NCBI GenBank assembly: GCA_020628475.1
Contig: JAHDFB010000002.1
Location: 21,483 to 85,482, forward strand
Reading direction: 5' to 3'
DNA length: 64,000 nt
From: Saprospiraceae bacterium
Lineage (GTDB): Bacteria; Bacteroidota; Bacteroidia; Chitinophagales; Saprospiraceae
In this document: positions 18,184 through 31,354 of the stretch, piece after piece
Position numbering within the stretch: the stretch's first letter is position 1
How the letters are laid out: each line of letters opens with the position of its first letter
Notes under the pieces: model-generated
What the model was told of the DNA's origin: nothing
What the model saw: the letters and a program-made list of their open reading frames with translations, nothing else
Database searches by the model: none
Program-made: the position numbers and the translations under genes

Positions 18184-21162
18184 TTACGCGACGACACTAT
18201 AGCGGACATCTTCTACATAAGCCTGCCTTTCTATACGCATCACCTCTATACTCAAAAATCCAAACTCTTCGACAACCTTGCCCACAATCTTATAAATACC
18301 TTTTCCTCGGAAAGGATAGGTCTTGGCCACTGGTGGAAAATGTACGGTATCAATCCAAGCGCCATAATAATCCAAAAAGGTGCCAAATTGCATGCGCTTT
18401 TGATTGGAAGTAGTAGTATTCTTCACCGTGATTAGATAACCAAAAATAGTAATGACTTTATTTTTGTAGGCTTCCAAATTCTTTGACGCCACCACATTAT
18501 TCGGCACAAAATCTTTCAATAAAAGAAATGGATGACACAAAGGAAAGCCCAACAATTCAATTTCATCAAAGGCATTTTCCAAGGTTTCCACTTTGAATGC
18601 TGGCAATGTGAAAGCATGTGGCGTATATCCAAACAACTGTTGTTGATCCCCCTTAAAAGGACTGGTATTTAATCGATGATGTGCGTTCCACAATAAAGTT
18701 CGTTTATCCAAACCCGTAAATCGAAAAGCATTGATGCGAATCAAAATATCCAATTGCTGAATACTGATCAACACTCGATCTAAAAAATCGTCTAAAGAAC
18801 GAAAGGCTCCTTGTTCTTTACGATCCTCAATGATTCTCTGAGCAACATTGACCTCCAAGCCCTGTAATAAATGCATCCCCAGATAAATATCATCCCCATA
18901 AAGCCAGGTGTAATAAAAACTCTTATTAACACAAGGAGCATTGATATTTCCACCCAATCTACGCGCCTCATGAACATATAATTCCGTCCTGTAAAATCCT
19001 CCACCATTATTGATCACTGCCACCATATATTCCAACGGATAGTAACATTTCAAAAACAAGCTCTGATAACTTTCTACGGCGTAAGATGCACTATGTCCTT
19101 TCGCAAAGGCATATCCGGCAAAACTTTCAATCTGACGCCAAATGTCAAAGGTCGTCTCATCCGGATAGTTCTTGGCTCGGCAATTCGAAATAAATTTTTC
19201 TTTAACCTTCTGAAATTCCTCTCTAGAGCGATACTTTCCACTCATCCCTCGACGCAATACATCCGCTTCGCCCAGATCCAAACCAGCAAAATGATGCGCT
19301 ACTTTGATCACATCTTCTTGATAGACCATCACGCCATAGGTCTCCGGCATAATCTTTTGTAAAATAGGATGCGCCAATTTACGTCGATCTTCATCCTTAT
19401 GTCGCATGATATATTCCCGCATCATACCGCTCTTTGCTACCCCTGGTCGAATAATCGAACTGGCCGCCACTAAGCCATGATAATTATCTACACCCAACTT
19501 CATAAAGAGCATACGCATGGCAGGTGACTCCACATAAAAGCAACCAATACAATCTGCCAAACTGATCATGCGGTTGATTTTATCATCCCTGAAAAATGGT
19601 TTTACATCATGTATATCGATCAGAGCATCATTCGGTTTATTGACTCTGACAAGCTGCAAAGCATCCTTTATTTTTCCCAGGCCTCTTTGTCCTAATATGT
19701 CGTATTTATACAATCCAACATCCTCCGCAACAACCATATCAAACTGCGTCGTAGGAAAACCCTTCGGTGGTAAATCCGTTGCCGTAAAATAATGAATCGG
19801 TCGCTCGGAAATAATAATCCCTCCTGCATGTATACTCAGATAATTCGGCATCCCTTCTATTCGTTTGGCATACACAAGCACTAACTGAGACAACTTATCC
19901 AACTGCTCAAAACTAAATTTTCCACTGCTTAATTTATCCATTTCATGCTTCGGCAAACCAAAAACCTTCCCCAATTCACGCACCGCAGCACTATGCTTGA
20001 ACGTATTATACGTTGCTAATAAAGCAACCTGCCCCTCTTGACCAAAGCGCTCAAATATATAACGCGTCACATCTTCACGGTCTCTCCAAGAAAAATCAAT
20101 ATCGAAATCTGGCGGACTCGTCCGATACAAATTCATAAAGCGCTCAAAATAGAGATCCAACTCAATAGGATCTACATCCGTGATTCCCAATAAATATGCG
20201 ACGATACTATTCGCCCCACTCCCTCGTCCCACATGATAATACCCTTTGCGCTGTGCATAGTCCACGATATCCCAATTCACCAAGAAAAAAGGAACAAAAT
20301 CCATCTTCTCGATCATTTCTAGTTCCTTCTTCAATCGAGACTGTATCGTATCATTAAGCGTTGGATAACGATATTTCAAACCCTTTGCACATAAGTCCTT
20401 GATCAGTTGTTTGTCCTCTGCCTTATTCCCCGAATAGCTCCATTTGTTTTGATGAGGTCGATCCTTCGAAAAATCAAAATCTATACAACACTGATCCAAC
20501 AAACGCTGTGTATTATCAAGCATCCAAAGATCATTTCTGTATGCCTCCTTCAAGTCTTCCATCCGAAGGTACAAGTCCTTTTCGGAAGCCTGTTGTTCTG
20601 GAGTCAATTTGCTCAATAAGGTATTATTGTCAATCGCTCGAAGTAATCGATGTGTATTGAAATCCCGTTTATTTCTAAACGAAAAACTATTCAGCGCGAC
20701 CAACTTGTCCCGATACTTCGAATACTCAGAAAAAGGCAACTTTGATAATTCAAATCGATTGACACCTATGTATTCGTATGCTTCGAAATGCGTTTTATTC
20801 AGTGATCGTACTTGTTCAAAAGGGTAAATAACATAAACGTCCTCCATCGGAGGGGTACTCTCCGGAAAATCTGTTTTCGCGTGTTTATGTTGAGACAAGA
20901 AGGCATTAATGTTCTGAAAACCTCTATTCGTTTTAGCTAGGGTCAAATACAGTTGTCTAGGTCCTGCCCTGAAATCAACGCCCAAGATTGGCTTGATCCC
21001 TTTTGACTTCGCCACACGTACAAAATTCAGACAAGCCGACGTATTATTGACATCTGTTATGGCAACACATCTTGCTCCATCCGCAACCGCCATATCAACA
21101 AGCATTCGCTCCGAAATCGTACCATATCGCAAACTATAATATGTGTGACAACATATATACAT
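18184..21162 (-). CDS. dnaE2: DNA polymerase III alpha subunit-like, DnaE2-type (error-prone candidate)
   Basis: C-family pol catalytic motif PPDFDIDFSWRDR; YHVGRGSGANSIVAYLLGITDVDPI; GYAFAKGHSASYAVESYQSLFLKCYYP; OB-fold C-terminus; 993 aa; ATG overlaps upstream stop (TGATG). Confidence 0.88.
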   Translation of the reverse strand: MYICCHTYYSLRYGTISERMLVDMAVADGARCVAITDVNNTSACLNFVRVAKSKGIKPILGVDFRAGPRQLYLTLAKTNRGFQNINAFLSQHKHAKTDFPESTPPMEDVYVIYPFEQVRSLNKTHFEAYEYIGVNRFELSKLPFSEYSKYRDKLVALNSFSFRNKRDFNTHRLLRAIDNNTLLSKLTPEQQASEKDLYLRMEDLKEAYRNDLWMLDNTQRLLDQCCIDFDFSKDRPHQNKWSYSGNKAEDKQLIKDLCAKGLKYRYPTLNDTIQSRLKKELEMIEKMDFVPFFLVNWDIVDYAQRKGYYHVGRGSGANSIVAYLLGITDVDPIELDLYFERFMNLYRTSPPDFDIDFSWRDREDVTRYIFERFGQEGQVALLATYNTFKHSAAVRELGKVFGLPKHEMDKLSSGKFSFEQLDKLSQLVLVYAKRIEGMPNYLSIHAGGIIISERPIHYFTATDLPPKGFPTTQFDMVVAEDVGLYKYDILGQRGLGKIKDALQLVRVNKPNDALIDIHDVKPFFRDDKINRMISLADCIGCFYVESPAMRMLFMKLGVDNYHGLVAASSIIRPGVAKSGMMREYIMRHKDEDRRKLAHPILQKIMPETYGVMVYQEDVIKVAHHFAGLDLGEADVLRRGMSGKYRSREEFQKVKEKFISNCRAKNYPDETTFDIWRQIESFAGYAFAKGHSASYAVESYQSLFLKCYYPLEYMVAVINNGGGFYRTELYVHEARRLGGNINAPCVNKSFYYTWLYGDDIYLGMHLLQGLEVNVAQRIIEDRKEQGAFRSLDDFLDRVLISIQQLDILIRINAFRFTGLDKRTLLWNAHHRLNTSPFKGDQQQLFGYTPHAFTLPAFKVETLENAFDEIELLGFPLCHPFLLLKDFVPNNVVASKNLEAYKNKVITIFGYLITVKNTTTSNQKRMQFGTFLDYYGAWIDTVHFPPVAKTYPFRGKGIYKIVGKVVEEFGFLSIEVMRIERQAYVEDVRYSVVA

Positions 21163-21992
21163 CACTGATTAAATAAATCCAATTGATCGTTTTGCTTTCG
21201 TTTTCTAGCCGTTGTTTCACCCATACCCTGCAACTCCAACTCCTGATAAAAGATGTATTCAAATTCTTTTTTAAGTTGTTTTCCTACAGGTTTCAGCACC
21301 GCAACATCTTTATTCCTTCCAGATTTTATCGCGGTAGATATCGGATATGCATTGAACTCATGATCATCAAAAGGCTGCATCATCGCCGTTACCTCACTGA
21401 GTGGAAGATCCTTATCCAACCATCGACCCTCATCTTCTTCTGCCAGAATCAGCGGACTCCTATGGTGCGGAATTTTCTGTAATAGGGATGTTGGTGGTGT
21501 TGTAATAATCGCAAAACTTCTTGTAATTTCTCCACTTTGTTTATCGATCCATTCATCCCAAATACCCGCCATCGCAAACGGCCGTTTGTGATGTCTTCTA
21601 TAAACCAGATAAGGCTCGCTCAATTTCTTCGTTGTAGAGCCTTCTACAAAAGCATCCGCGATGACCAAACAACGCTGTGATCGGATGGCCTTTCGAAACA
21701 TGGGTTTCTCTATAATCCCCTTCGCGCCTTTATAGGCCGGATCATTTTCTTTATTGTGATTGCCCTCACTGCGCGCATTAATCACATAAGTCTTTTTGGT
21801 CGCCCAAGAAGGCGTAAAACCAAATCTAAACAACTGAGCTTTCTTCGGTTCATCACTTGTGATCACCAAGGCCTCATCATTCGTACTCACATTCGGATTT
21901 AACTCAAAACGATCCAAAATTTCCGATACATCGATTTGAAATTCCTTCTCAATAACTTTTAACTTCGTTATGACAGCGTATCTTCCACACAT
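21162..21992 (-). CDS. SOS response-associated peptidase (SRAP/YedK/HMCES family)
   Basis: MCGRYAVITK N-terminus with catalytic Cys2; FGFTPSWATKK; NARSEG; RCLVIADAFVE; SFAIITTPP; HHRSPLIL. Confidence 0.95.
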   Translation of the reverse strand: MCGRYAVITKLKVIEKEFQIDVSEILDRFELNPNVSTNDEALVITSDEPKKAQLFRFGFTPSWATKKTYVINARSEGNHNKENDPAYKGAKGIIEKPMFRKAIRSQRCLVIADAFVEGSTTKKLSEPYLVYRRHHKRPFAMAGIWDEWIDKQSGEITRSFAIITTPPTSLLQKIPHHRSPLILAEEDEGRWLDKDLPLSEVTAMMQPFDDHEFNAYPISTAIKSGRNKDVAVLKPVGKQLKKEFEYIFYQELELQGMGETTARKRKQNDQLDLFNQ

Positions 21993-22012
21993 ACTATTCT
22001 TATTTTATTGTA

Positions 22013-23224
22013 TTAAGCCGTTCGATGAGCCAACACGATCGGCGGCTCTCCATTAAATGGATTCATCATTCCTCCGATGCTCTTCGCCCCCATCGTAGAC
22101 GCACGAATCACACTACGACTTCCATATTTATTACGAATCACATCCATAGCCTGGTATAAATTGGCCGTACATTGCGTATTCTCAAAGAGGCTCATTTGAT
22201 AATTACCCGATACTAAACTACTAAATCGAACTCCAACCAAGCGTATAAGCAATCGCTTATTATACAATTGGTCAAATAATTCCAGCGTTTTACTGAGTAA
22301 ATTATGATCGGCCGAAGTATAAGGAATCTTTGCTTGCTTGGTATGTGTATTAAAATCTGAATATCGAATCTTGATGGTAATACAAGAAGTCAATTTCTGG
22401 CCATTTCTCAATTGAAAGGCAAGGTTTTCCACCATTGCACTGATCAAAGTCTTCAACTTCTTCACATCGGTTGTATCTCGACCAAATGTTCGCTCATTGG
22501 AAATAGATTTACGTTCGTGATATTGAACCAACTGACTATGATCGATTCCATTGGACTTTAACCAGATCGATTTTCCATGTTTGCCAAATACCGACTCCAT
22601 CATTTCAACAGGCATTTCTTGCACTGTTGCGACCTTTTTGATCCCCAAATGACAGAGCGTCTGAAAGGTTTTATTCCCCACCATCGGAATTTTCTTAACC
22701 GATAATGGAGCTAAAAAAAGCTTTTCATAACCCGAGTCGATTTTAATTTGATTATTGGGTTTTGCCTCTCCGGTAGCTACCTTCGATACTGTTTTATTAA
22801 TCGAGAGGCCAAAGGATATGGGCAATCCCGTATCGCGAATAATCTGGTGCCTCAACTCTTTGGCAAATTTATAACAACCAAAATGTCGATCCATTCCTGT
22901 CAGATCCGCATAGAATTCATCTATACTGGCTTTCTCCAAGACAGGTACTCGCTCCTTCAAAATCTCGGTAACCGCCTTCGAATACTTCGTATAGGTTCCA
23001 GCATTTCCCTTGATAACAACCGCCTCCGGACATAATTGTCTTGCCATTTTCATAGACATCCCTGAGTGCACACCAAAGGGCCGCGCTTCATAGCTCGCTG
23101 CTGATACGACCCCTCGATCTCCGGTTCCTCCTACCAAAATCGGGATGTTTTTCAAGCGGCTATCCAACAATCGCTCCACAGACACAAAAAAGGTATCTAA
23201 ATCTAAATGTAATATTGACCTCAT
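22013..23224 (-). CDS. dinB: Y-family DNA polymerase (DinB/Pol IV-like)
   Basis: MRSILHLDLDTFFVSVERLLD; VVSAASYEARPFGVHSGM; EKASIDEFYADLTG; SFGLSINKTVSKVATGEAKP. Confidence 0.95.
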   Translation of the reverse strand: MRSILHLDLDTFFVSVERLLDSRLKNIPILVGGTGDRGVVSAASYEARPFGVHSGMSMKMARQLCPEAVVIKGNAGTYTKYSKAVTEILKERVPVLEKASIDEFYADLTGMDRHFGCYKFAKELRHQIIRDTGLPISFGLSINKTVSKVATGEAKPNNQIKIDSGYEKLFLAPLSVKKIPMVGNKTFQTLCHLGIKKVATVQEMPVEMMESVFGKHGKSIWLKSNGIDHSQLVQYHERKSISNERTFGRDTTDVKKLKTLISAMVENLAFQLRNGQKLTSCITIKIRYSDFNTHTKQAKIPYTSADHNLLSKTLELFDQLYNKRLLIRLVGVRFSSLVSGNYQMSLFENTQCTANLYQAMDVIRNKYGSRSVIRASTMGAKSIGGMMNPFNGEPPIVLAHRTA

Positions 23225-23238
23225 GAAACTACAATAGA

Positions 23239-23314
23239 TTGGTAATAATTACAAATAAATGGAATATTTCCAACTTTATAGTAATTTTTACCAAAAAATT
23301 GGAAATATTACCAA
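23239..23314. promoter_or_regulatory. Four operator-like imperfect palindromes in the divergent dinB / S24-regulator promoter
   Basis: TTGGTAATAATTACAA (23239-23254), ATGGAATATTTCCAA (23259-23273), TAGTAATTTTTACCAA (23279-23294), TTGGAAATATTACCAA (23299-23314); centres about 20 bp apart. Confidence 0.65.
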
Positions 23315-23333
23315 AAATCAATATTTTTGATAT

Positions 23334-24095
23334 ATGGATCTCCCGATAGAATGTCAAAGACTCAGAATCGTTCGCGAAAGCTTAAACGAAACGCAAAGCT
23401 CGTTTGCGAAAAAACTAAACATTGGTAATAGTACGACTGATTTTGAGCGCGGTAGAACCAAACTTAGCGGTATACTTGTCCTCAAACTGCTCAGCGAGTA
23501 CCATATAAACCCCTTATGGTTATACGGTCAAAGCGAGCAAAAACACCTCAATCCAAATGCCCTCGAATTGCACCCAAAAGTCGTCACGATCAATGATACC
23601 GGCTACGAAAACATCCTCATGGTCAATGAGAAAGCAGCTGCAGGATACAGCGGCAACCTAAGTAACCCAGCTTATTATAAAGAACTCCCAGCCTTCTCCT
23701 TTCCCCTAGCGGAATATCGCAATGCCACCTTCCGAGGATTTCAAGTCGAAGGATTCAGTATGACACCGATCATACAACCTAGCGAATGGATTATCACCAA
23801 AGCCATTGCGAACATCGAACAAATCAAGGATGGTAACATCTATGTTATCGTGGAAAATGAAGGTATCCGGATCAAAAAAGTCATCAATAATAGTTCCAAT
23901 CAAACACTCAGTTTGATATCCATCAATCCCGAATACGCCCCAGATGTTATTCCCTATGCACAGGTGCAGGAAATCTGGGAATATCACAGTAAACTCACCA
24001 AAGAAATCGCCCATCAATCCCCGAATAAGAAGCTAGAAGAAATGCATGCCGATATTAAGACCCTGCAAGAAGAGGTCGCCAAACTCAAGCAATAA
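23334..24095 (+). CDS. LexA/CI-like transcriptional regulator (HTH + S24 peptidase)
   Basis: N-terminal HTH (LRIVRESLNETQSSFAKKLNIGNSTTDFERGRTKLSG); AAAGYSG cleavage-like segment; EGFSMTP nucleophile Ser and IRIKKV Lys. Confidence 0.85.
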   Translation: MDLPIECQRLRIVRESLNETQSSFAKKLNIGNSTTDFERGRTKLSGILVLKLLSEYHINPLWLYGQSEQKHLNPNALELHPKVVTINDTGYENILMVNEKAAAGYSGNLSNPAYYKELPAFSFPLAEYRNATFRGFQVEGFSMTPIIQPSEWIITKAIANIEQIKDGNIYVIVENEGIRIKKVINNSSNQTLSLISINPEYAPDVIPYAQVQEIWEYHSKLTKEIAHQSPNKKLEEMHADIKTLQEEVAKLKQ

Positions 24096-24102
24096 AAAAG
24101 CA

Positions 24103-24606
24103 CTACAAAGGAATCTGGCCCAACTTTTTCAAATCAACTTTTGTACTAAATCGATCCAATAATAATCGGAGTTTCGGATGAATATACGACTGACAAAAAG
24201 CCGCTTCCGGTCGCCTATACAGATAATTTAACCACTCCTCTTTGTTCTCCTTAAAATCATTAAACATCAAGACCTCGGTAATGATTTTCTTATCAAAATC
24301 AGTCTGCAAGGCACGAAGAATCTCCACACTTTCCATACACTGTTCCTCTGAGAAAACATACACCGCCGAACGATACTTCTCCCGAAAAGCATGCTCAGAC
24401 GTACTCGCATGGGTATATACATGAATCTCTATCAAATCCTTCAAACTGATTTCAAGCGGATCAAAAGACACCAAAACCGCTTCCGAAAAAGTCTCTTGCT
24501 TTCCAAAAGAAGCAATCCAACCCTGCCGCACCGCATTAATACCGCGCAACGACTGAAATACGCCTTCCGTACACCAATGACAACCACCTCCCAAACCTAC
24601 TTTCAT
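24103..24606 (-). CDS. msrA: peptide methionine sulfoxide reductase MsrA-like
   Basis: GLGGGCHWCTEGVFQSLRGINAVRQGW (GCFWC-type motif), HASTSEHAFREKYRSAVYVFSEEQ. Confidence 0.8.
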   Translation of the reverse strand: MKVGLGGGCHWCTEGVFQSLRGINAVRQGWIASFGKQETFSEAVLVSFDPLEISLKDLIEIHVYTHASTSEHAFREKYRSAVYVFSEEQCMESVEILRALQTDFDKKIITEVLMFNDFKENKEEWLNYLYRRPEAAFCQSYIHPKLRLLLDRFSTKVDLKKLGQIPL

Positions 24607-31282: not shown

Positions 31283-31354
31283 TTGACCTACAAGGACTCG
31301 AACCTTGAATGCGAGAACCAAAAACTCGAGTGTTGCCAATTACACCATAGGTCA
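31283..31354 (-). tRNA. tRNA-Gln(TTG)
   Basis: Minus strand TGACCTATGGTGTAATTGGCAACACTCGAGTTTTTGGTTCTCGCATTCAAGGTTCGAGTCCTTGTAGGTCAA; 7-bp acceptor stem, T-loop TTCGAGT, anticodon TTG. Confidence 0.93.

Follow-up and report, generated by a model that had tools for sequence, protein, structure and literature searches.

A putative LexA-type damage switch over two translesion polymerases and an SRAP protein in a Saprospiraceae genome

In a stretch of 64,000 nucleotides from a Saprospiraceae bacterium (assembly GCA_020628475.1, contig JAHDFB010000002.1), here called the window, we analyzed a cassette of four genes, namely, dinB, a gene of the SRAP (YedK/HMCES) family, dnaE2, and a divergent gene for an S24 repressor. 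Several described systems are close to it. (i) In Bacteroidetes, a module composed of a Y-family polymerase (PolY), DnaE2, and RecA has been predicted (PMC6511836, PMC12926913). (ii) Bacteroidetes also possess non-canonical LexA proteins, S24 repressors of COG2932. According to passages of PMC8565304, one of their two groups has GGA-N5-TCC as its site, S24 proteins of this type bind the published motifs, and mitomycin C induces the genes that they control, among which are error-prone polymerases. (iii) SRAP genes in DinB operons that also contain LexA or a DnaE paralog were listed in 2013 by Aravind and colleagues (PMC3765255). The set of gene kinds named there is the same as in our cassette; the available passages of that article propose an autopeptidase switch and do not contain a clamp-type tail, a separate clade, or a link to the Bacteroidetes non-canonical LexA. 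(iv) The ImuA-ImuB-DnaE2 mutasome likewise is a damage-regulated cassette (a regulation predicted here for our locus) that unites a DnaE2-type polymerase with a Y-family protein. The core of an active Y-family polymerase, DnaE2, and a LexA-like S24 protein is already known in Bacteroidetes, and a preliminary description of this DNA was right to suspect that similar neighborhoods might be on record, since the polymerase pair, the repressor class, and SRAP-DinB operons are all published. The combination of this core with a distinct SRAP clade, a clamp-type SRAP tail, and a four-box operator array appears to be new.

We consider the chances about even that the cassette places two translesion polymerases and a shield for abasic sites under a LexA-type damage switch, with SRAP in a protective role. 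The cassette spans positions 18184-24095 (Table 1), with the order dinB, SRAP, dnaE2 on the minus strand and the helix-turn-helix (HTH) S24 gene divergent from dinB. dinB and SRAP are separated by 20 bp, and the TGA of SRAP shares one base with the ATG of dnaE (TGATG). The Pfam calls (DNA_pol3_alpha/finger/PHP, SRAP, IMS/IMS_C, and Peptidase_S24) all exceeded the curated cut-offs and, together with the open reading frames, they bore out the four genes, coordinates, gap, and overlap given in the preliminary description. The source is a Saprospiraceae-like genome in 110 contigs that is 61% complete. Judged by the DnaE protein, the nearest named relatives of this genome are Saprospiraceae metagenome-assembled genomes, followed by Flavobacteriaceae and Cytophagales.

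The S24 repressor and its operator array

The putative scissile bond A103-G104 of the S24 protein and its dyad S142 and K181 were invariant in an alignment of 40 homologues, in agreement with the plausible cleavage segment and Ser/Lys dyad noted earlier in the divergent gene. The N terminus showed a weak match to an Xre regulator, and the predicted model, of moderate confidence (predicted local distance difference test [pLDDT], 77.6; predicted template modeling score [pTM], 0.54), matched lambda CI, LexA, and P22 c2. With an Ala-Gly site, a Ser-Lys dyad, an N-terminal HTH of the phage repressor type, a position divergent from dinB, and an exact GGA-N5-TCC sequence, the protein resembles the non-canonical LexA proteins in the passages of PMC8565304, for which the operator at the repressor's own promoter is GGA-N5-TCC or CTAA-N5-TTAG.

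The intergenic gap between dinB and the S24 gene measures 109 bp and holds four palindromic cores in steps of 19, 20, and 20 bp (Table 1). One is an exact GGA-N5-TCC and three are near variants, with GGA and GTA half-sites mixed. At least 4 such cores occurred in 0.45% of trials with shuffled gap sequence, under a scoring rule that was set after the sequence had been seen. In relatives, most divergent gaps between S24 and dinB hold 2 to 4 cores that are 19 to 20 bp apart (21 to 23 bp for the outermost), and this retention of array and spacing is stronger support than the shuffling test. The array, its 19- to 20-bp period, and its mixed half-sites set the cassette apart from the systems of PMC8565304, in the searched passages of which we found no mention of tandem boxes. 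The four boxes could serve as a simple model of the repression of divergent promoters by a non-canonical LexA.

An exact match to the double core with 19-bp spacing was found in the genome at this locus only. Single-box matches were near background (36 versus 29 for the reversed pattern, per strand), and the two other exact matches in the genome both lie inside genes. No clear operator array was seen upstream of recA, which this contig carries about 13 kb past the window end (G000:C80:98311-99102); there were only weak 7/8 matches. On these grounds, a large regulon in this genome was rejected. A repressor "dedicated" to the cassette, as initially proposed, is plausible, given that the double-box array occurs once and recA lacks a clear array in a genome that is just 61% complete. 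We infer that damage induction of the cassette would proceed via the S24 protein, and the data support the initial view of a set of DNA damage polymerases that has an S24 repressor to itself.

The two polymerases

Alignment to Pol IV structures revealed that the catalytic residues D8, D102, and E103 of DinB are intact. Only the domains IMS, IMS_C, and IMS_HHH_1 were found, whereas ImuB is an inactive Y-family protein with an ImuB-C domain. DinB also carries a clamp-binding-type motif and a segment resembling the N terminus of RecA (Table 1). In the cassette DnaE, the catalytic residues D352, D354, and D356 are invariant in 106 homologues, and all NCBIfam models except the superfamily model stayed below their cut-offs. 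In the family sample, relatives have both this DnaE of ~990 amino acids and a DnaE1 of ~1180 amino acids (a match with ~30% identity); since DnaE1 is separate, the DnaE of the cassette is not the replicative one. We compared the 70 nearest dnaE2 loci for which 12 kb of DNA or more was present; dinB lies within 5 kb in 66 of them, and in 35 an S24 gene is there too. This dinB-dnaE2(-S24) core is common, and SRAP is therefore the extra.

An active PolY with clamp and RecA N-terminus motifs beside a second, short DnaE is also the arrangement of the Bacteroidetes PolY2-DnaE2 modules (DnaE2B-PolY-RecA; PMC6511836, PMC12926913), and, as in these modules, neither ImuA nor ImuB is present in the cassette. 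A search of the 61% complete genome, made solely with the RecA family model, returned a single match, RecA itself. The cassette DinB fits this published PolY-DnaE2-RecA kind, in which RecA would take the role of ImuA. Unlike the published modules, the cassette has an SRAP from a distinct clade between its two polymerases; unlike the ImuA-ImuB-DnaE2 mutasome, it has no ImuA and no inactive ImuB. The preliminary description had placed SRAP where ImuA/ImuB would be, a claim that found no support, because DinB is an intact Y-family polymerase with clamp and RecA-like motifs. With its catalytic residues and RecA-like tail, DinB leaves neither ImuA nor ImuB to be replaced by SRAP, and a variant of the ImuA-ImuB-DnaE2 system with SRAP as the replacement was rejected.

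SRAP clade, gene neighborhoods, and C-terminal tail

The window SRAP has all four active-site residues, which are highly conserved in the aligned family members (C2, 72/73; N72, 73/73; E117, 71/73; H176, 72/73). In Foldseek searches, its predicted fold matched 2f20 (E value, 3.7e-19), HMCES (1.1e-16), and YedK (4.6e-15). The protein thus shares the catalytic Cys2, Asn, Glu, and His and the fold with HMCES and YedK, and differs from them by an additional ~30-residue extension and a C terminus of the bacterial clamp type. A tree of 68 SRAPs grouped the sequences linked to cassettes in one clade (support, 100/100), the only other member of which is the SRAP of the close relative G004.

Cassette-type SRAPs (>200 bits) were detected in 12 of the 90 genomes of the family sample. 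In nine of the 12, SRAP immediately precedes dnaE2 in the same orientation, at distances that range from a 1-base overlap to ~240 bp. Only two canonical SRAPs in this sample were seen within ~3 kb of dnaE2, and none was adjacent. SRAP stays beside dnaE2 in three genomes where dinB has moved or was unseen (G087, G041, and G133). Independent SRAP lineages became associated with these polymerases in different gene orders, namely, dnaE-dinB-SRAP (L061, L063), dinB-dnaE-SRAP (L079, L188), and, on plasmids, SRAP beside S24-dinB-dnaE (conjugative plasmid pEMTOL01 of the cultivated Emticicia oligotrophica, L226) and SRAP-dinB-dnaE (Adhaeribacter, L227). That SRAPs were recruited repeatedly speaks for a functional link, and the view of SRAP as a recurrent partner of both polymerases is supported.

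Other genes are also found at or near the SRAP position. In the close relatives G004 and G032, the position next to dnaE2, immediately upstream, that SRAP holds in the window is taken by a DUF72 gene (L208:5050-5949 and L207:3600-4499). From its position, DUF72 may be linked to the damage response; our literature search found no papers joining DUF72 with SOS polymerases. The SRAP of G004 (L094, G004:C63:33292-34089) lies away from the cassette of that genome and no longer has all active-site residues, with NIPME in the NARSE region and Ala at the Glu position, as if the protein had decayed once DUF72 displaced it. At L006:8510-9808, a DinB_2-family gene and a HEAT protein resembling DNA alkylation repair proteins are inserted between SRAP and dnaE2, and short open reading frames resembling the four-helix proteins of 23S rRNA intervening sequences recur near cassettes (L006:7173-7526, L203:5396-5761, L202:145-510, L201:2185-2580).

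The window SRAP ends in QLDLFNQ, and close relatives have QLDLF, QLGLF, or QMDLF; the clamp consensus quoted in PMC12926913 is QxxLF. A motif of this clamp-binding type closes most of the cassette SRAPs. We found [LMI]F in the final 12 residues of 39 of 73 Bacteroidota SRAPs, as compared to a mean of 4.9 (maximum, 11) for shuffled tails and 5.0 for internal segments; as the sequences are related to one another, the 39 cases are not independent events. The structural model is confident over the core, and pLDDT values of 54-68 across the tail are as expected of a flexible docking peptide. Such clamp-binding-type ends are frequent in canonical Bacteroidota SRAPs as well as in those of cassettes. 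For comparison, seven plasmid-borne SRAPs of other phyla were sampled, of which the seventh (Priestia) had no full reading frame. The clamp-type end was absent from all six tails compared, so that a universal clamp tail of bacterial SRAPs was rejected; such tails may be confined to Bacteroidota. Our literature search, of incomplete coverage, found no papers linking YedK to the sliding clamp. HMCES docks on PCNA. Judging from its tail, SRAP seems to be tethered to the sliding clamp like both polymerases. A broader proposal, which we regard as tentative and somewhat doubtful, is that Bacteroidota SRAPs are sliding-clamp clients via a C-terminal QxxLF, comparable to HMCES on PCNA, and that the dedicated cassette clade shares the clamp with DinB and DnaE2 and would there serve as gatekeeper, deciding between the capping and the copying of an abasic site.

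Possible roles of SRAP in the cassette

In the mechanism that we propose, the S24 protein would bind the four-box array and repress both divergent units. RecA on single-stranded DNA would cause it to cut itself at A103-G104, as its residues and published relatives suggest, and this would clear the array for the joint production of DinB, SRAP, and DnaE2. From their motifs, DinB and DnaE2 would both be held by the sliding clamp, with DinB bound to RecA as well, in a PolY-DnaE2-RecA mutasome that would copy past lesions. SRAP would dock on the same clamp via its C-terminal QLDLF, and its residues and fold are consistent with a Cys2 that forms crosslinks to abasic sites wherever single-stranded DNA is exposed. 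Its job would most likely be protective, preventing breakage at abasic sites and shielding them from the induced low-fidelity polymerases, which would bypass other lesions. According to passages of PMC10250235, a crosslinked HMCES stops both Y-family and replicative polymerases and suppresses mutagenesis at abasic sites, and HMCES caps are described in passages of PMC10250235 and PMC9436759 to prevent breakage and block translesion polymerases. This block favors a shield; it also makes doubtful, as to its sign, the coupling of abasic-site shielding to error-prone synthesis put forward in the preliminary description. The simplest reading is that of a brake and shield made alongside the error-prone enzymes and not of a helper subunit.

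A number of observations weigh against a protective, clamp-tethered SRAP under LexA-type control. (i) When the 80 nearest dnaE2 loci were compared, only 9 contained SRAP, which is missing from most such cassettes and so is optional; the neighborhood survey called for initially upheld the dinB-dnaE2 core, with an S24 gene at a part of the loci, and not SRAP as a regular member. (ii) Of the four boxes, two lack a GGA half-site, being GTAA/TTAC variants, and the scoring scheme for boxes was devised with the sequence in view. (iii) Clamp motifs are short, and several SRAPs of the cassette clade have no xLF end (L004, L069, L090, L093, L189).

Three other roles were weighed. SRAP may be a regulon passenger that clusters with the polymerases only to be expressed from one damage-inducible promoter and functions on its own, as any YedK would. 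This would agree with passages of PMC8565304, in which SRAP is predicted under the same motifs elsewhere in Bacteroidetes, with the variable gene order (dinB-SRAP-dnaE, SRAP-dinB-dnaE, dnaE-dinB-SRAP, dinB-dnaE-SRAP), and with the replacement by DUF72 in two close relatives; we nevertheless hold it to be unlikely, as the cassette SRAPs remain beside dnaE2 when dinB moves and form one long-branched clade with its own extension, which points to co-adaptation. The same tight association with dnaE2, even where dinB is unseen or elsewhere, and the conserved segment that this clade has between core and tail could be read as signs of a true mutasome subunit, recruiting or licensing DnaE2 and DinB at abasic sites and coupling crosslinking to error-prone bypass; SRAP-like subunits have been predicted for some UmuC-like polymerases (PMC12926913). 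The block of Y-family and replicative polymerases by HMCES crosslinks, and the fact that most dinB-dnaE2 cassettes work without SRAP, make such a subunit distinctly improbable. We see very little likelihood that the unit is a mobile mutagenesis cassette, passing from plasmids to chromosomes and back and working chiefly for the benefit of its carrier. The similar sets on the Emticicia and Adhaeribacter plasmids speak for mobility, but in the window and in most close relatives the unit is surrounded by ordinary chromosomal genes, and no mobility gene was seen adjoining it in the window.

Bacterial SRAPs are widespread, and the locus touches on the question of how they reach replication forks and relate to translesion polymerases. 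The clamp-type tail and the clade neighboring dnaE2 permit a direct test of whether a clamp-bound shield hinders or helps the co-induced polymerases.

Table 1. Location of the cassette genes, protein motifs, and predicted operator boxes in the window
Feature	Position	Strand	Size or residues	Description
dnaE2-type C-family polymerase	18184..21162	-	992 aa	Pfam DNA_pol3_alpha, finger, PHP, HHH_6
SRAP (YedK/HMCES family)	21162..21992	-	276 aa	Cassette clade; Pfam SRAP, 157.9 bits
dinB (Y-family polymerase)	22013..23224	-	403 aa	Pfam IMS and IMS_C
Non-canonical LexA-type HTH-S24 repressor	23334..24095	+	253 aa	Peptidase_S24
DnaE clamp-binding-type motif	18631..18645	-	840-844	QQQLF, directly after the helix-hairpin-helix region; L in 103/106, F in 106/106
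SRAP clamp-binding-type motif	21171..21185	-	270-274	QLDLF; low-confidence tail of the model
SRAP extension	21195..21236	-		ELQGMGETTARKRK; cassette clade only, versus canonical SRAPs (tails and alignment)
DinB RecA N-terminus-like motif	22103..22159	-		LYQAMDVIRNKYGSRSVIR; matches the RecA N terminus of the genome, LKLAVDKLDKTYGKGTIMK; kept in relatives
DinB clamp-binding-type motif	22184..22198	-	343-347	QMSLF; Q(M/I)xLF across relatives
Operator box 1	23242..23252			Core GTAATAATTAC; palindromic (predicted)
Operator box 2	23261..23271			Core GGAATATTTCC; exact GGA-N5-TCC (predicted)
Operator box 3	23281..23291			Core GTAATTTTTAC; palindromic (predicted)
Operator box 4	23301..23311			Core GGAAATATTAC; palindromic (predicted)

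No long repeats or RNA elements were found near the cassette; the sole Rfam match in the window is a tRNA gene at positions 31283-31354 on the minus strand. The S24 gene is followed by a convergent MsrA-like gene (24103-24606), which matches Pfam PMSR with 68.8 bits yet stays under the NCBIfam cut-off for MsrA.

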